Assembly: GCA_029261155.1 (NCBI GenBank)
Contig: JAJDBW010000036.1
Span: forward strand, 1 to 40,089
From: Nitrospirota bacterium
GTDB taxonomy: Bacteria > Nitrospirota > Nitrospiria > SBBL01 > JAADHI01
DNA length: 40,089 nt
Direction of reading: 5' to 3'
The position numbers and the translations under genes were made by a program. Under the pieces are notes generated by a model. The model made no database searches. It saw only the letters and a program-made list of their open reading frames with translations, and was not told the origin of the DNA. Below are positions 2,397 to 39,890 of this stretch, one piece after another (position 1 is the first letter of the stretch; every line of letters begins with the position of its first letter).

Positions 2397-3548
2397 ATGA
2401 GCACATCCCCCAGATTTCGAATCTTCATCATCGGCGCAGGCTTTTCAGTCCATGCGGGGTTGCCTCTGGGTGAGCAACTATTTGAGCTTGTCCGGGGAGC
2501 AGTACGTCACAGATATGGCTCGGATAACAAGCTTGAGGGAGATTTGGATTGGTACCTCAAATATCGGCTTCGTTGCGATGAAGTGTCTACTGACGCCCCT
2601 GTGGATTATGAGAAATTCATGTCCCACTTGGACTTGGAGCACTATTTAGGTTTGCGTGGTAGCGATACATGGAGTGATGAGGGCAATGAATCCCAGTTAC
2701 TGATACGAAATGGGATTCAAGAGGTTATTTACTCGCGCACCCCTGAGGCACCAACAGTAGAATGCATTCGCTTCTGTGAGCAATTACTACATAGAGACGT
2801 TGTCTTAACATTCAATTACGACACCTTAATTGAAGACACTCTCGATCATCTGGGCAAGCCGTACAGGCTTTTTCCAAATCGTGTAAAAGAGGTAAGGGCT
2901 TCATCGTCACTAATAGATAGCGATGCTGAGGATCACGAAATATTAATCAGCAAACTGCATGGCTCCATTGACTGGTACGACAAACTTCCATTTTTGAGAG
3001 ATCGTGAGCATGCAAGTCAGTATGAGCATCCTTGGGAATCAAGACACCCCGTTTTTAAGGATGGCTCTACAGTTTCAAGCACCCAGTTGATCGAAGGTCC
3101 TTTTGATGAGGAAGATTCGCTTCAATATGTTTACCGAGTAAACGACTTATCGCAATTAACTGATGCGCAGTTCTGGCAATGCTCGCCTCTAATCCTTTCA
3201 CCATCAAGCTCAAAAATTCTCTACGCGAATCCTCTCAAGTCACTGTGGCGGGGTTTGCAACAGGCTGGAGGTTTAAACTTTGGCCTAGGAGTCGTCGGGT
3301 ATTCGCTGCCGCCATACGATGAATATGCTAGGCAAGCACTCTACCATTTGATGCGGAATTACACAGAATACGAATACGACCTGGAAATGATGGGCCTTAC
3401 AAAGGGTCCTGCAAGAATTCTCGATTATTCGCCGCCTGGGTCGTCCGATTGGAAGATACGGAAGAACTACTCGTTTATGAACTGGGATCGAACCGAGTTA
3501 AACACTACTGGGTTAAGTGTAGATAGCATCAATTGGATTATGCAGTGA
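2397..3548 (+). CDS. SIR2-like domain protein, candidate anti-phage NADase
   Basis: A 383-residue protein with the landmarks of the SIR2_2-type Rossmann fold: the nucleotide-binding motif GAGFSVHAGLP at residues 13-23, FNYDTL at 139-144 (conserved Asn/Asp near the nicotinamide site), KLHGS at 186-190 (His188 in the position of the catalytic histidine) and GYSLPPYDEY at 301-310. Proteins of this group often hydrolyse NAD+ in phage-defence systems (ThsA, DSR and other SIR2 effectors) rather than deacetylate proteins. That activity is family knowledge and is not proven here. There is no transmembrane segment, and no second conserved domain is obvious beyond the C-terminal 70 residues. It fills a single gene cassette between the attC sites at 2304-2390 and 3555-3633. 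Being a one-gene unit, it would be self-sufficient or act with a host factor. Confidence 0.85.
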   Translation: MSTSPRFRIFIIGAGFSVHAGLPLGEQLFELVRGAVRHRYGSDNKLEGDLDWYLKYRLRCDEVSTDAPVDYEKFMSHLDLEHYLGLRGSDTWSDEGNESQLLIRNGIQEVIYSRTPEAPTVECIRFCEQLLHRDVVLTFNYDTLIEDTLDHLGKPYRLFPNRVKEVRASSSLIDSDAEDHEILISKLHGSIDWYDKLPFLRDREHASQYEHPWESRHPVFKDGSTVSSTQLIEGPFDEEDSLQYVYRVNDLSQLTDAQFWQCSPLILSPSSSKILYANPLKSLWRGLQQAGGLNFGLGVVGYSLPPYDEYARQALYHLMRNYTEYEYDLEMMGLTKGPARILDYSPPGSSDWKIRKNYSFMNWDRTELNTTGLSVDSINWIMQ

Positions 3549-3722: not shown

Positions 3723-5261
3723 ATGGCCCGGTACAAGCCCTATTCTTATGATCAAAGTAAACTCATTCCCATCTATTTTGCCGATCAGATCCTTCCCGGC
3801 ACCTTCGAATACGCCTTAAACCACATCGTCGACAACGAACTCGATCTGTCGATCTTTTTGGGCCGTTTTAAGAATGACGAATGCGGCGCATCCGCCTTCG
3901 ATCCGTCCATTTTACTTAAAATCATCCTCTTCGCCTATTCCCACGGGATTACTTCCAGCCGAAAGATCGAAGCGGCTTGCCAAAACAACATTCTCTTTAA
4001 AGCGCTCTCCGCCGACACCGTCCCGCACTTCACGACGATTGCTGACTTTATTTCTACAATGGAAAAAGAGATCGCCCCGTTGTTTCGAAACGTGTTGTTG
4101 ATCTGCGACGAGATGGGCTTAATCGGCAAAGAGATGTTCGCCATCGACGGCTGTAAACTGCCCTCCAATGCCTCCAAAGAATGGAGCGAAACGCGTACCG
4201 ATTTTAAAAAGAAAAAAGAGAAGATTGAAAAAGTCATCACCCACATTCTGAAACGACACCGGGAAGAAGACCACGCGGGACCTCCGAATAAATCGCTTAA
4301 GGAAAAAAGAGACACGCAGGTAAAAAAGTTGCGCGACAAATCAGAAAAGATTAAAAAATGGCTTATGGAAAATGAAGATAAAACCGGGAGAAGCGGAAAG
4401 ATCATCAAGAGCAATATCACCGACAACGAAAGCGCGAAGATGCCGAGTTCCCACGGTGTCATCCAAGGTTACAACGGCATTGCGGTAGCGGATGCCAAAC
4501 ATCAAGTCATTGTCGGGGCGCAAGCCGTCGGCAGCGGATCGGAGCAGGATAGTCTGGAGCCGATGATCGAATCGACGGAAGCGCACTTTAAAGCGATCGG
4601 GAAAGAAAAAGGGATTTTCAAAAAAACAAAACTGCTGGCCGACAGCGGCTTTCACAGTGAGGCCAACATGAAGATGTTAAATGAAAACAAGATCGACGGC
4701 TACGTTGCCGACAACCGTTTTCGGAAAAGAGATCCCCGTTTTGAAACGGCGGATCGGCATAAAAATCCCATCAAGAAAACAAAACCAAAAAAGAAATATT
4801 TTACGCCTTCCGATTTCAATCGGGACGAGAGAACAGGAGAAGTCCTTTGTCCGGCGGGCAAAAGCTTGTATCTAAAAAACAGCAACTTCGCCGTGCGAGG
4901 CTTAAAAGGCATCAGCTACATGGCTCGGCAAAGCGACTGTGCACCCTGCCGATTAAGAGCACACTGTTTAAGAAAGGCGCACACCGTCGCCCGCCAGGTT
5001 ACTTTTTTTACGGGAAAGACAAAAGAGGCAAAAGAGACCTACACGCAGAAGATGATCAAGAAAATCGATTTGGAAAAAGGGAGAGAAACCTACAGCCGCC
5101 GGATGGGGATCGTCGAACCGGTCTTTGCGAACATACGCAGCACGATGCGACTGGATCGCTTCAGCCTGCGGGGAAAGGTCAAGGTCAACATCCAATGGCT
5201 GCTGTTTTGTATCACGCACAATCTAGGGAAAATCCAACGGTATGGCTTGCAGATGGGATGA
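3723..5261 (+). CDS. IS1182-family DDE transposase
   Basis: A 512-residue intact transposase that catalyses strand cleavage and transfer of the surrounding element. The N-terminal region (about 1-120) matches the DUF772-type domain of IS1182/IS5-like enzymes. Likely catalytic acidic residues are Asp142 (in AIDG), Asp307 (in LADSGFHSE) and Glu465 (in VEPVFANIR). A lysine-rich helical insertion lies between the first two (about 160-225). Cysteines at 376, 406, 409 and 415 (CxxC plus flanking Cys) suggest a zinc-binding knuckle. The start is the ATG after a strong AGGAGGAG. Family length and architecture look complete, so the element could be active. Confidence 0.93.
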   Translation: MARYKPYSYDQSKLIPIYFADQILPGTFEYALNHIVDNELDLSIFLGRFKNDECGASAFDPSILLKIILFAYSHGITSSRKIEAACQNNILFKALSADTVPHFTTIADFISTMEKEIAPLFRNVLLICDEMGLIGKEMFAIDGCKLPSNASKEWSETRTDFKKKKEKIEKVITHILKRHREEDHAGPPNKSLKEKRDTQVKKLRDKSEKIKKWLMENEDKTGRSGKIIKSNITDNESAKMPSSHGVIQGYNGIAVADAKHQVIVGAQAVGSGSEQDSLEPMIESTEAHFKAIGKEKGIFKKTKLLADSGFHSEANMKMLNENKIDGYVADNRFRKRDPRFETADRHKNPIKKTKPKKKYFTPSDFNRDERTGEVLCPAGKSLYLKNSNFAVRGLKGISYMARQSDCAPCRLRAHCLRKAHTVARQVTFFTGKTKEAKETYTQKMIKKIDLEKGRETYSRRMGIVEPVFANIRSTMRLDRFSLRGKVKVNIQWLLFCITHNLGKIQRYGLQMG

Positions 5262-17188: not shown

Positions 17189-17617
17189 CTAGCGAATCAT
17201 TTGTAAGCTTTGACGGGTTTGCTTGGCACGGAAGGAGGCCTTTCTGGCTGCGGCCAAAGCCAGGCGCTTATTGTTTTCCTCGCTGAAGGCGACCGCCTTC
17301 TTCGCCATATCCAGCGTGCCCTGCACGGAGGCGATCATCTTCTTTTTATTCCCCTTAAACATTTTCGGATCCGCTGTTTCGAGCGTCGCCAGCAACTCTT
17401 CCGACAAGGCAATCATGCGAAGGCCATATTCGATAATCTCATGGATATGCCCTTCGTCTCCATGCACGACCATGTCTTGGGCACTGAGGTAAACCTGGTT
17501 GGCAAGATGTTGAATCGGGCGTAGGGTATCTGCCGAAGCTTGTCTCGAAAGTGGCAAGTTCAGAAGTAAAAATAAAAGAAAATAAGTGGAAACGAGCTGA
17601 AAGCGATCTCTTTGCAT
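17189..17617 (-). CDS. Small exported helical protein, SmbP-like
   Basis: A 142-residue protein with a cleavable signal peptide (about residues 1-29, ending SRQASA). The mature protein is nearly all helical. It contains AQDMVVHGDEGHIHEIIEYG, which echoes the HGxEGH motif of SmbP, the small periplasmic metal-binding protein of Nitrosomonas. Only this one histidine cluster is kept, so metal binding is possible but weakly supported. The ATG at 17617 is preferred because GAGG lies 6 nt upstream and the signal peptide begins there; a start 51 bp further upstream would add 17 residues ahead of it. The gene is divergent from the Ycf48-like gene. Confidence 0.55.
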   Translation of the reverse strand: MQRDRFQLVSTYFLLFLLLNLPLSRQASADTLRPIQHLANQVYLSAQDMVVHGDEGHIHEIIEYGLRMIALSEELLATLETADPKMFKGNKKKMIASVQGTLDMAKKAVAFSEENNKRLALAAARKASFRAKQTRQSLQMIR

Positions 17618-17688
17618 TCGCGCCTCGTAATAGTGTAAAACATAGCATGTCTTAGGCAGGAAGATCAACGCGTGTTTTGGAGAAATAA

Positions 17689-19569
17689 ATGAAGAAAATC
17701 GTCCTTTATGCCCCTTTTTTTGCCCGCCTTTTGACGATCATTTTACTCCTTTTATTTTTTGCTAAATCATCGCTTTTTGCACAAGAATCCGCTTCATCCG
17801 GCGCATGGCGAATTCAACAAGGAGAAGTCAGTGCGACTGCGCTTTGGGGCGTCTATTTTCTCAATAAAGACAAAGGGTGGGCGGTTGGGGCCACCGGGGC
17901 CATCCTCCATACATCGGATGGCGGAAAGCACTGGCGCGCACAGTTTCGAAAACGCGGGGAACGTTTTTTCTCCATTCACTTCCCCGACGAGATAAACGGC
18001 TGGGCGGCCAGCTGGTCGGGCAGCATTTACCACACCAAAAATGGCGGAGTACACTGGGAAAAACAGGCACAACCAAAAACCATTTGGCTTTGGTACATCC
18101 ATTTTACCGATGCAAAAAACGGCTGGGTTGTCGGGGCGCAAGGCACGGTATTGCAAACCAAGGACGGCGGACACACCTGGACGCTTCGGGATATCGGATA
18201 TAAAAATGGACCTTTCCTCGAGGTCTATTTTTTGAATCAGAAAAAAGGATGGATTGTGGGTTGGGATGGGAAAATATTTCACACCCAAGACGGCGGATCG
18301 AGATGGGTCGAACAAAACAGCGGCACGAAAATACCTCTGGAGGGCATCCACTTCGTTGACGAACATCACGGCTGGGCGGTGGGTCGGCAAGGCGTGATTG
18401 TCCATACATCGAATGGGGGCAAGACCTGGTCCCCGCAAGAAAGCCACTTTAACAAATCGCTGCTGCTTAACGTTCGCTTCTCCACGCCCAAGGCCGGCTG
18501 GATCGCGGGAGGGACCGGGGTCTTTTTAAGAACGGAAGACGGCGGCTTTACCTGGGTACCCATTGAAGTCCCCACAGACAAAACGATGGAAGGACTTTCT
18601 TTCGGCGACAATCGGCACGGCTGGGCCGTCGGTTGGGGCGGTTTTATCATCCACACAGCAGACGGCGGACTGACTTGGGACACGCAAAACTACGGGCTCC
18701 CCGATCGTCTTTTTAAAATTCATTTCGTCAACGACAAGCAAGGCTGGATCGTCGGCGAAGCCGGCACCATTCTGCATACAAAAGATGGCGGAAAAATTTG
18801 GGACTATCAGGATAGCAGCACCGACAAATGGCTTTTCTCTGTTTATTTCACCTCTGCTCAAAACGGCTGGATCGTCGGGGCAAAAGGGGCTTTATTGCAC
18901 ACGCGCGACGGCGGAAAAACCTGGAAAACTCAAAAAAAACTGACTGAAGGCAGCCTGGAGAATGTCTTTTTTCTCAACGAAAAGACGGGCTGGGTCATCG
19001 GAGAAAAGGGTTTGATTTTTAAAACCGTCGACGGCGGCAAGGAGTGGAATCTACAGTTTAGCGAAGTAATTACCAATTTAACCGATATCTATTTTTTCGA
19101 TGAAACCAAAGGCTGGCTAACGGGAAGCCGCGGGACCTTGCTCTATACCGAAAACGGCGGGGCAGAATGGAAACGATTTAAATTGCCTTTTTCGAATTTG
19201 CTTTCCAGAATTGTGTTTAAGGACGCGCAGCGCGGATGGATTGTTGGCGGCGATGGACTGGTGATGCGCACAGTCGATGGCGGCACGCATTGGATCCCTC
19301 AGCAAAGCGGAACCGAAGAAGGGCTTTGGGATATCGCCATGAATGGAGACGAGGGATGGGCCATCGGCGATCTGGGCGTTCTCATTCATACAAAGGACAG
19401 CGGTCAGAGCTGGCGCCCTGTAGAAAGCGGATCCCTCAATGGCTTGATGAGCCTCAAGTTTTTCAACCCTAAAAATGGCTGGGCCATCGGCAAAGGGGGG
19501 CTGATCTTAAGATACGATCAAACAAAGACTGCAAGCCAGACTAAATCAACGCAGATCACAAACCGGTAG
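17689..19569 (+). CDS. Exported Ycf48-like protein with 14 propeller repeats
   Basis: A 626-residue protein with an N-terminal signal peptide (about residues 1-31, ending SSLFA). The mature part is built from 14 repeats of about 40-45 residues with the BNR/Ycf48 signature GW-x-V-G-x-x-G-x-x-x-x-T-x-D-G-G-x-x-W. Thirteen are complete and the last lacks its DGG-W end. Ycf48/HCF136 is a single seven-bladed propeller that assists photosystem II assembly. Here the number fits two such propellers in tandem, or one large ring. Relatives in non-photosynthetic bacteria are exported and of unknown role. No lipobox or C-terminal sorting signal is visible. The membrane-protein gene that follows starts 5 nt after its stop, so the two are likely co-translated. 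Confidence 0.85.
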   Translation: MKKIVLYAPFFARLLTIILLLLFFAKSSLFAQESASSGAWRIQQGEVSATALWGVYFLNKDKGWAVGATGAILHTSDGGKHWRAQFRKRGERFFSIHFPDEINGWAASWSGSIYHTKNGGVHWEKQAQPKTIWLWYIHFTDAKNGWVVGAQGTVLQTKDGGHTWTLRDIGYKNGPFLEVYFLNQKKGWIVGWDGKIFHTQDGGSRWVEQNSGTKIPLEGIHFVDEHHGWAVGRQGVIVHTSNGGKTWSPQESHFNKSLLLNVRFSTPKAGWIAGGTGVFLRTEDGGFTWVPIEVPTDKTMEGLSFGDNRHGWAVGWGGFIIHTADGGLTWDTQNYGLPDRLFKIHFVNDKQGWIVGEAGTILHTKDGGKIWDYQDSSTDKWLFSVYFTSAQNGWIVGAKGALLHTRDGGKTWKTQKKLTEGSLENVFFLNEKTGWVIGEKGLIFKTVDGGKEWNLQFSEVITNLTDIYFFDETKGWLTGSRGTLLYTENGGAEWKRFKLPFSNLLSRIVFKDAQRGWIVGGDGLVMRTVDGGTHWIPQQSGTEEGLWDIAMNGDEGWAIGDLGVLIHTKDSGQSWRPVESGSLNGLMSLKFFNPKNGWAIGKGGLILRYDQTKTASQTKSTQITNR

Positions 19570-19574
19570 GGGGA

Positions 19575-20288
19575 ATGGCTACCTTAAGGGATCGTCGAAC
19601 CGAATGGTTTGTCCCTCAATTCGGCCCACTCAAGTTTCGCGTCTTCGTCGGATTGCTCTTTCTGCCCTACACCGGCATGGTCCTCAGTTATACCGTCATC
19701 GGCGCCATGCTGGCCGAGACCCTTTATTGGGACCGCGTCTTCGCCATCGTCCTGATCTATTTTTTGGGGCTTGGCATCGCCGCCCACGCCCTCGATGCCA
19801 TCGGCGGCGAAGGAAAGGCGAAACCCTGGGGCAATCACTTTTCGAAGCGAAGCCTCTGGTTGCTCGCCGTCTTCTCCTTGCTTCCCGCTTATGCGCTGGG
19901 TTTTTACTACATCATTTTTTATACGCCGCTGTTGCTCACCATCGCGATCTTGGAAGGCTTCTTTCTCTTTGCCTACAATCTTGAATGGTTTAATGGCCGC
20001 TTCCACACCGATGGCGCCTTCGCCTTTTCCTGGGGTGTGCTCCCGGTGCTCGGCGGATACATCATTCAAACAAACAGCCTCTCCCTATCCGCCCTCGCCA
20101 TTGCCGCCGCAATGGGGCTGCTGAGTTTCGTTGAAATCAACGCCTCTCGACCTTATAAAGCGATGAAGCGTGCGAACGAAGCCGTCAATCTTTCTTTTCA
20201 GAAACGCTGCGAAAATATTTTAAAAGGGATCAGTCTGGGGGTTATTCTGCTGGCGCTTGCGATGGTCTTATTGCGCTTGGGGCGATGA
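19575..20288 (+). CDS. Polytopic membrane protein, possibly UbiA-superfamily-like
   Basis: A 237-residue protein with about seven hydrophobic segments. The loop AHALDAIGGEGKAKPWG after the second helix resembles the Asp-containing loops of UbiA-type prenyltransferases and related archaeal membrane proteins. A second cytoplasmic loop holds NLEWFNGRFHTDGAFAFSWG. The canonical NDxxDxxxD motif is not present, so enzymatic activity is doubtful. The gene follows the Ycf48-like gene by 5 nt, with AGGGGGA between, indicating an operon. A shared role in assembling a membrane complex is inference. Confidence 0.55.
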   Translation: MATLRDRRTEWFVPQFGPLKFRVFVGLLFLPYTGMVLSYTVIGAMLAETLYWDRVFAIVLIYFLGLGIAAHALDAIGGEGKAKPWGNHFSKRSLWLLAVFSLLPAYALGFYYIIFYTPLLLTIAILEGFFLFAYNLEWFNGRFHTDGAFAFSWGVLPVLGGYIIQTNSLSLSALAIAAAMGLLSFVEINASRPYKAMKRANEAVNLSFQKRCENILKGISLGVILLALAMVLLRLGR

Positions 20289-37427: not shown

Positions 37428-39890
37428 GTGAAACAGGCCTATTTTAAATGGATCGTCAAACATGCCTATGGGGTCATGGCGCTGATTTCAGCCCTGACCC
37501 TTTTTTGTCTCTTCCAAATTACCTCAATCGAAACCGAAATTGATCCGAAACAGATTCTCCCTCAAGAACATCCTTATATTGAAACCAACACCAAAATTGA
37601 GCGCCTTTTTGGGGGTGGACGCATCATCGTCATGGGAGTCGTCTCGAAAAACGGAAACATCTTTACGCCAACCCTTTTATCTAAAATTGACCGGATCACC
37701 CAGGAAATAAAAACCCTTCCAGGGATTTATAGCGACAACGTCCTCAGTATCGCTTCCCGCCGGATCAAGCACCTCCATTTCACCGATCAGGGCTTCAATG
37801 TTGAGCGATTGATGTCCGGCCTGCCCTCAACGCAGGCCGAGGCTGAGACCCTAAGAAAAAGGGTCTTCTCAAATCCGCTCCTTATCGGGGCATTGGTTTC
37901 TCCAGACGCCAGCGCAGCGGCCGTCATTATCGATGTACAGGATAAGGAAGCCGTTGTACAAAGCGGAGAGATCAGCGGGGAACCCATCGGAAAAGCCGTC
38001 AGCGACCTTGAAATTTATGAGGCTTTAGAAGCCATCGCGATGCGGGAGGGCGATGCGGAAACCTCTATTCACCTCGGTGGCCTCCCGGTTTCACTGGCCT
38101 TCCTCGAAAAAGACACGGCCCTCATGAATCGTTGGGTCTTCCCCATCGCTTTCCTCCTGATTATGTTTATCCATTACCGTGCCTTCAAAACGCTTCAAGG
38201 GATGTTGATCCCGGCCCTCACGGCCCTATTAAGTGTCGTCTGGGCCATGGGAGTGGTCGGCATCACCGGCATGAAGCTCGATTTGTGGACCAAGGGTCTC
38301 ACCCCCATCCTCATTGTCGCAATGGCTGCGGGTCACTCCGTCCAGATCCTGCGCCGATTTTACGAAGAGCTGGACTACGCCGTGGGCATGGACGTCCCCG
38401 AACCGGCACAAAAGATTGCCGTCGTCGCGGCAACCTCTAAGATGGCCCCCGTCGTGCTCACTGCCGGATTTGTCGCCGCCGCCAGTTTTGCCTCTCTGGT
38501 GACCTTCGATCTGCCGACCTTTCAATCTTTTGGTTTGATGACGGCCTTCGGCGTCCTTAGCGCCTTAATATTAGAGATGACCTTAATTCCCGCCCTCCGT
38601 TCCCTGATTCCCCCGCCGACGGGTGAGGAGTTGTCTATCGTCCTCAAAGGAGACGCCTCCGATGTCTTTCTTAAAACCATTGGCGATTGGTGCTTTGGAC
38701 CGAAGCAACGCTGGGTCGTCTTCGGCGGACTGGTCTTAATCCTCGTCCCTTTTATCTTCACAGGCCGCATTCAATTTGCGAACAGCCTGCGCGACTTATT
38801 TTTCGAACGGACGGCCTTAAGCCGAGATGATAAGGTCTTGAACGAAAAGTTCGGCGGCACATCGACCTTAAACATACTGATTACAACCGAGGAAGAAGGC
38901 GGATTAAAAGACCCCGCAGTCATGCGGGCAGTTGAGTCTCTCCAAGGACTTTTAAGGGGCAACCCCTTGGTAGGGCGAACCGAATCCTATGTCGATTACA
39001 TCAAACGGATGCGGCGTTCTTTTTATGGCGACAATCCCGAGGAAGAACGGATCCCCGAGACTCGGCAAGAGGCCGCGCAGTTTCTGTTTCTCTATTCCGT
39101 TTCCGGCAACCCCGACGATTTTAAGCGGATGGTTGATATCGGCTTCCAAAATGGCGTGGTCACCACTTTTTTGAAATCGGACGCGACAGAATTGGCCGAG
39201 GCTTTGATTGGCCAGATTGACCAATTACAAAAAGAAACCTTTCCGCCCAATATAACCCTCAGTATCGCCGGAAGCGTCCCTGTCACCCTGGCACTCAACG
39301 ATGTCATTATCCGAGGCAAACTTTTGAACATCGCCCAGATGATGGGTATTTGTTTTCTTCTCGTTTCTATCATTTTTCGCTCGCTACTCGCCGGGTGCTT
39401 TGTGCTCATCCCGCTTATCCTGTCCGTGGTCTGGAATTTCGGTTTCTTGGGCATTAGTGGATTGCCCCTCGGCATTTCCACCGCCGCGGCCTCCGCCATG
39501 GCCGTGGGCATGGGCGCCGACTACGCAATCTATATCTTATATCGTTTTAGGGATGAGCTTTCTCTCAACCGGCATCTCGACCGCGTCATGCACACCACCT
39601 TGGATACGGCGGGCCGAGCTATCCTGATTATTGCAATGGCCTTTGCGGCAGGAACCTTTCTGGTGGCCTTTCCAGGCTACTACCTTCACATTGAAGGCAT
39701 TCTCATGCCCATCGCGATGCTGAGCAGCGCACTTTCAGCCATTATCCTCCTTCCCGCCATGGTTATGGTTTTTCGTCCCCGCTTTATCTTCCGCGTTATC
39801 CCAAACGAATGGATCGAACTCTATACCCGAGGAGAATCCCAGAAATTTAATGTCGAAGGCGACGTCCTCCGCAGACCTCGAAACGATTAA
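37428..39890 (+). CDS. MMPL/RND-superfamily exporter (HAE3-like)
   Basis: An 820-residue inner-membrane protein with the RND plan: TM1 at about 15-32, a periplasmic domain to about residue 235, five TM segments (about 237-395), TM7 near 430, a second periplasmic domain, and five more TM segments to about 790. The motif GMGADYAIYILYRFRDEL in the second half matches the TM4-equivalent GxxxDY/F signature of MMPL and HAE3 transporters. These move lipids or hydrophobic compounds using the proton gradient. The start is GTG with no ribosome-binding site. No membrane-fusion protein or outer-membrane partner is adjacent. It is divergent from the Usp gene. Confidence 0.9.
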   Translation: MKQAYFKWIVKHAYGVMALISALTLFCLFQITSIETEIDPKQILPQEHPYIETNTKIERLFGGGRIIVMGVVSKNGNIFTPTLLSKIDRITQEIKTLPGIYSDNVLSIASRRIKHLHFTDQGFNVERLMSGLPSTQAEAETLRKRVFSNPLLIGALVSPDASAAAVIIDVQDKEAVVQSGEISGEPIGKAVSDLEIYEALEAIAMREGDAETSIHLGGLPVSLAFLEKDTALMNRWVFPIAFLLIMFIHYRAFKTLQGMLIPALTALLSVVWAMGVVGITGMKLDLWTKGLTPILIVAMAAGHSVQILRRFYEELDYAVGMDVPEPAQKIAVVAATSKMAPVVLTAGFVAAASFASLVTFDLPTFQSFGLMTAFGVLSALILEMTLIPALRSLIPPPTGEELSIVLKGDASDVFLKTIGDWCFGPKQRWVVFGGLVLILVPFIFTGRIQFANSLRDLFFERTALSRDDKVLNEKFGGTSTLNILITTEEEGGLKDPAVMRAVESLQGLLRGNPLVGRTESYVDYIKRMRRSFYGDNPEEERIPETRQEAAQFLFLYSVSGNPDDFKRMVDIGFQNGVVTTFLKSDATELAEALIGQIDQLQKETFPPNITLSIAGSVPVTLALNDVIIRGKLLNIAQMMGICFLLVSIIFRSLLAGCFVLIPLILSVVWNFGFLGISGLPLGISTAAASAMAVGMGADYAIYILYRFRDELSLNRHLDRVMHTTLDTAGRAILIIAMAFAAGTFLVAFPGYYLHIEGILMPIAMLSSALSAIILLPAMVMVFRPRFIFRVIPNEWIELYTRGESQKFNVEGDVLRRPRND

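Follow-up and report, generated by a model that had tools for sequence, protein, structure and literature searches.

An exported 14-repeat Ycf48-like protein and a divergent UbiA-superfamily membrane protein are usually encoded side by side in the Troglogloeales

In a 40,089-nucleotide stretch of DNA from a Nitrospirota genome of 3.56 Mb (the window), the gene for an exported repeat protein is followed on the same strand by the gene for a membrane protein, which starts 5 nt past the stop codon. Do the two proteins work together, and if so, in what process? A first-pass annotation of the window had suggested that the repeat protein could work in the periplasm, as a chaperone or an assembly platform for a membrane complex built with its neighbor. 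We call the two proteins PROP and MEM, and we call the small protein encoded on the other side of PROP C5. The locus consists of:

17189 to 17617, minus strand: C5, a small secreted helical SmbP-like protein of 142 amino acids from the ATG at 17617 (from its neighborhood, Pfam, and alignment)
17618 to 17688, no strand: the 71-bp intergenic region between the divergent C5 and PROP genes, a candidate shared regulatory region (from the gene coordinates)
17689 to 19569, plus strand: PROP, an exported 14-repeat Asp-box (Ycf48-like) beta-propeller protein of 626 amino acids (from PF14870, its repeats, and its orthologues)
19575 to 20288, plus strand: MEM, a divergent UbiA-superfamily membrane protein of 237 amino acids (from the AF2 model, PDB fold matches, and Pfam matches of relatives)

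The closest named relatives of this genome are Nitrospirota MAGs, including Candidatus Manganitrophaceae and Candidatus Troglogloeales, and on this basis we refer to its order as Troglogloeales. We sought orthologues of PROP and MEM in 18 genomes of the order. We also surveyed an even sample of 148 Nitrospirota genomes, which included two from Troglogloeales.

PROP contains 14 GW-x-x-G repeats in register that recur every 40-42 residues, and its sequence begins with a hydrophobic signal; both the repeat number and the export agree with the first-pass annotation. There are 13 Asp-boxes; the one in repeat 14 is absent, together with the outer strand. The strict pattern GW..G..G...DGG..W matches 12 times in PROP and not once in 2000 shuffles, and PROP matches PSII_BNR in Pfam (PF14870) with E = 3.6e-89. 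Full-length orthologues with 47-64% identity and the same 14-repeat layout are found in 17 of the 18 genomes, if we include one that is split over two contigs (G003) and one with a frameshift (G017). Two features lie at the ends of the repeat array:

17803 to 17829, plus strand: an N-terminal strand of the SGAWRIQQG type, which is similar to the outer strands of the repeats (inferred from the sequence register)
19435 to 19512, plus strand: the incomplete repeat 14, which ends in GKGGLILRY, lacks an Asp-box, and is like the C-terminus of Ycf48 (from the register and comparison of orthologues)

The N-terminal strand may close a ring. Together with the incomplete repeat 14, it is consistent with PROP closing in the manner of Ycf48, whether into a single ring or two. 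A sequence test for a clean 7+7 duplication found no excess similarity at an offset of seven repeats (p = 0.33), and the single-sequence AlphaFold model of PROP is of low confidence (pLDDT 35). Besides the Asp-box repeat sequence, PROP shares with Ycf48/HCF136 its export, the incomplete last repeat, and the possible ring-closing strand; in a profile alignment, repeats 8-14 cover nearly the whole Ycf48 chain (8AM5_S). However, PROP has 14 repeats instead of 7, its conserved face is different, and its score of 310.3 bits is below the NCBIfam equivalog cut-off of 326 (NF010237).

Double propellers with two 7-bladed rings are known from GH74. Since PROP has Asp-box repeats, and since these repeats also match Sortilin-Vps10 in Pfam (E = 3.7e-21), it could conceivably be a double propeller of the GH74/Vps10 type that acts on or binds polysaccharides. 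We consider this very improbable, as the Ycf48 match, at 3.6e-89, is far better, and neither a GH74 model nor a GH74 structure was among the matches of PROP.

The conservation of PROP is concentrated in one part of the array:

17956 to 18822, plus strand: repeats 2-8 of PROP, with a strongly conserved face (from a comparison of entropy across repeats)

The conserved face residues are E91, R92, W109, W133, P175, W192, R233, G275, T299, W316, D339, and R340. At face positions, the mean entropy is 0.56 in repeats 2-8 versus 1.43 in repeats 9-14 (p = 1e-4, which is optimistic because we picked the positions after inspecting the conservation table). Non-face positions have similar entropy in both sets of repeats. 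Because the face is conserved in repeats 2-8 and not in 9-14, one half of PROP probably carries a binding face.

Ycf48 binds D1 through six clustered arginines on its face, which cover D1's manganese ligands in photosystem II (PMC10403576). In PROP, arginines occur singly in different repeats (R92, R233, R340, and R585 are conserved, one per repeat), and when its C-terminal half is aligned with Ycf48, no conserved arginine cluster appears, although the mapping of residues in this alignment is uncertain. We also looked for photosystem reaction-centre proteins (Photo_RC, PF00124) in the host genome and found none, while the control cyanobacterium was positive, so we rejected a photosystem-like client for PROP.

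MEM was called an unassigned seven-segment membrane protein by the first-pass annotation. The seven segments and the 5-nt spacing are borne out by the gene coordinates and by a confident AlphaFold (AF2) model with seven long helices (pLDDT 91.1, pTM 0.89), but MEM can be assigned. The ten best fold matches of the model in PDB (Foldseek) are all from the UbiA superfamily, with probabilities of 0.99-1.00, E values of only about 0.03-0.08, and TM scores of 0.44-0.58 by query length; the best viral match is a putative UbiA as well. Pfam's UbiA model (PF01040) matches 24 of 38 relatives of MEM, at best with E = 4.6e-8, and the matches shown score 20-24 bits, which is below the cut-off of 34.2. The MEM of the window itself has no match in Pfam, a sequence search against PDB gave nothing meaningful, and comparing the MEM profile to canonical UbiA proteins of the phylum (hhalign) gave no significant result. 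The assignment therefore rests on structure and on the Pfam matches of relatives, which together indicate that MEM is a divergent member of the UbiA superfamily, as judged from a predicted fold.

The predicted fold and the positions of the motif loops are like those of UbiA-superfamily prenyltransferases (PF01040; for instance, UbiA from A. fulgidus, 4TQ3, or UBIAD1, or DGGGP synthase). MEM differs from them in its seven long helices and in having lost or degenerate forms of both Asp-rich motifs:

19782 to 19808, plus strand: AHALDAIGG, where helix 2 ends, occupying the site of the first Asp-rich motif of UbiA (from the model and motif comparison)
20145 to 20159, plus strand: SRPYK, where helix 6 ends, occupying the site of the second Asp-rich motif of UbiA, basic and without Asp (from the model and motif comparison)

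Canonical UbiA proteins of the phylum have N...D...D and D......D...D at these two sites. Instead of the catalytic motifs, MEM has H..D and SRPYK: within AHALDAIG (residues 70-77), H71 and D74 are invariant, and a single Asp is retained. Since both motifs are degenerate, it is doubtful that MEM carries out ordinary Mg-diphosphate prenyl transfer. MEM proteins are mostly 55-70% identical across bacterial phyla, yet we found no named family for them, and our literature search turned up no paper that describes them.

Within the order, MEM is present in 17 of 18 genomes, and the exception, G010 (94% complete), is the one genome that lacks PROP as well. Of these 17 genomes, 14 have the two genes next to each other. 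In the other three (G001, G005, and G007) the genes are unlinked, and in two of those PROP stays beside C5, not MEM. Both genes occur twice in G008; one PROP gene adjoins one MEM gene, and the remaining two are on different contigs. The C5-PROP-MEM block is kept while the other flanking genes vary between families. Because of the operon-like spacing and the joint loss, we suggest that PROP and MEM take part in a shared process. (Our literature search found no papers that join Ycf48 and UbiA.)

Outside of the order, the picture is different. In the sample of 148 genomes, full-length PROP was found only in the two from Troglogloeales; a third genome encodes a different, longer repeat protein. 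MEM was found in the same two genomes and in one other. The first-pass annotation had proposed conservation of the gene pair as a check, and this holds within the order, with adjacency in most genomes and joint presence or absence, but not beyond it: none of the MEM loci that we fetched from outside of Troglogloeales has a PROP-like gene. The pairing with PROP is real but specific to this lineage, and MEM itself is much older and more widespread.

Could PROP act in the periplasm as a chaperone or an assembly platform, binding MEM itself or a complex of which MEM is part? This would fit the 5-nt spacing, the side-by-side genes in 14 of 17 genomes, and the joint absence from G010, and Ycf48, itself a propeller, helps to assemble a membrane complex (PMC10403576). 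On the other hand, given the lysine and arginine counts (the positive-inside rule), the N-terminus of MEM and its AHALDAIGG and SRPYK loops are predicted to be cytoplasmic, and the model together with charge counts indicates periplasmic loops of about 4-6 residues that are nearly uncharged. Such tiny loops are a poor docking surface, and the AHALDAIGG loop would be on the wrong side of the membrane, so a direct complex of PROP and MEM is unlikely. Also, MEM occurs without PROP in every relative that we fetched from outside the order, and the two genes are unlinked in three genomes within it. We consider it improbable that PROP binds MEM or a complex containing it. PROP may be a chaperone or scaffold, as originally proposed; its client is probably not MEM.

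To what is MEM linked elsewhere? In 29 of the 31 testable loci outside the order (those with enough sequence, counted by hand from the neighborhood table), a UbiE-like methyltransferase is encoded downstream of MEM on the opposite strand, so that the two genes are tail-to-tail. These loci are from Nitrospirota, Geobacteraceae, Methylococcaceae, Acidobacteria, Chloroflexi, and Nitrosopumilus. A cultured Methylocaldum is among the carriers of the gene pair. In about half of them, a polyprenyl-diphosphate synthase is encoded between or beside MEM and the methyltransferase, and several have a geranylgeranyl-reductase-like FAD protein. Since the methyltransferase is the older partner of MEM, these neighborhoods point to a poorly-known isoprenoid-lipid pathway rather than to a machine made of a propeller and a membrane protein.

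In several of these other lineages, a conserved exported protein is encoded directly upstream of MEM, in the place of PROP (L042:2169-2921, L044:199-906, L046, L053, and L058). It has a weak match to the LolA3 family (E = 0.004).

Within Troglogloeales, the MEM-associated methyltransferase is found in 16 of 18 genomes and is absent from G010. It is mostly unlinked to MEM, as in the genome of the window, where it is at G000:C58; it is beside or near MEM in G008, G009, G011, and G016. The methyltransferase belongs to the UbiE family (PF01209), like UbiE, MenG, and MpqE, but it scores far below the equivalog cut-offs (79-82 bits, versus 335 for MpqE). Because the genome of the window has its own canonical UbiA, encoded elsewhere, as well as a true, separate MpqE (G000:C85, 378.6 bits, above the cut-off of 335), MEM and its methyltransferase are probably not the methyl-plastoquinone enzymes, and we set this candidate aside. 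A separate MpqE above the cut-off is present in 15 of the 18 genomes. In G003, the genes for MpqE and the MEM-associated methyltransferase adjoin each other tail-to-tail (L187:5290-6943, on G003:C47).

The most constant neighbor of PROP is C5, which is adjacent and divergently oriented in 16 of 17 genomes. We called no promoter-like site within the 71-bp region between them. C5 resembles SmbP in being small, secreted, and apparently helical and in having conserved histidine and glutamate; the motif M..HG..GH..E is invariant in an alignment of 16 members. However, the similarity is weak: the best family member matches Pfam's SMBP (PF16785) with E = 1.7e-5 and 25.4 bits, which is below the cut-off of 29, the C5 of the window does not match this profile, and a search of PDB gave a weak match of C5 to SmbP (E = 0.66). 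Any metal binding by C5 is putative.

The strongest linkages of the two proteins thus differ: MEM goes with the methyltransferase and PROP goes with C5. This, together with the three genomes in which PROP and MEM are apart, would be expected if their adjacency reflected mere co-regulation or inherited gene order, with PROP (and C5) and MEM in unrelated envelope functions. But then it is harder to see why C5, PROP, and MEM stay together while their flanks are shuffled between families, why one genome has two copies of both PROP and MEM, and why both were lost from G010. We view unrelated functions as somewhat unlikely.

Instead, we propose that C5, PROP, and MEM form an envelope locus that is inherited together in Troglogloeales, and we put the probability of this reading, with the roles that follow, at about one half. 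The polar pocket of MEM would face the cytoplasm, and given its fold and gene neighborhood, MEM would handle an isoprenoid substrate (a prenylated ring or a polyprenyl lipid) without the usual Mg-diphosphate chemistry. The UbiE-like methyltransferase encoded elsewhere in the genome would act in the same pathway, on a prenylated substrate. PROP, which is joined to MEM only in Troglogloeales, would be a binding or assembly scaffold in the periplasm, acting through the face of repeats 2-8, as suggested by its export, its repeat family, and that face. The client of PROP may be an envelope or metal/redox partner, rather than MEM, and the SmbP-like C5 would be its closest functional associate.

Both PROP and MEM are of known kinds. 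What is new is that the propeller has 14 repeats, that the UbiA protein lacks the motifs, and that MEM is paired with a methyltransferase in two domains of life. We find this pair, which is common to bacteria and archaea, to be the more interesting part. Tentatively, and at slightly less than even odds, MEM and the tail-to-tail methyltransferase might be the core of an undescribed pathway that modifies isoprenoid lipids or quinones in bacteria and ammonia-oxidising archaea, with a UbiA fold that lacks the motifs; in Troglogloeales, two periplasmic proteins, the 14-repeat propeller and one that resembles metal-binding proteins, would have been coupled to this pathway. Should MEM and its methyltransferase partner indeed define a pathway, bacteria and ammonia-oxidising archaea would share an unnamed branch of prenyl-lipid metabolism. 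The paired genes would make this branch easy to recognize, and lipidomics could test for it. Similarly, the propeller would be a Ycf48-type protein outside of photosynthesis with a conserved binding face. The lineage with the PROP-MEM pair includes manganese oxidisers, and in photosystem II it is the manganese site that Ycf48 covers (PMC10403576), so the client of PROP is worth identifying.

We also noticed several other genes in the window and in related genomes. A large RND-superfamily exporter-like protein, recognized by eye, is encoded at 37428-39890 of the window; we saw no linkage to PROP in relatives. In one family, a gene near the C5-PROP-MEM block encodes a fusion of two domains, a molybdopterin oxidoreductase and a P-II regulator (L085:9207-10310, in G013). 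Elsewhere in the genome of the window is a second pair of propeller genes (G000:C31:23245-25271, or L079:7246-9272), which encode a BNR-repeat lipoprotein of 327 amino acids and then a seven-repeat Ycf48-like lipoprotein of 355 amino acids. Finally, the protein encoded at 2397-3548 of the window, near a transposase gene (3723-5261), has a SIR2-like look by eye (FNYDTLIEDTL) and is a possible defence gene.
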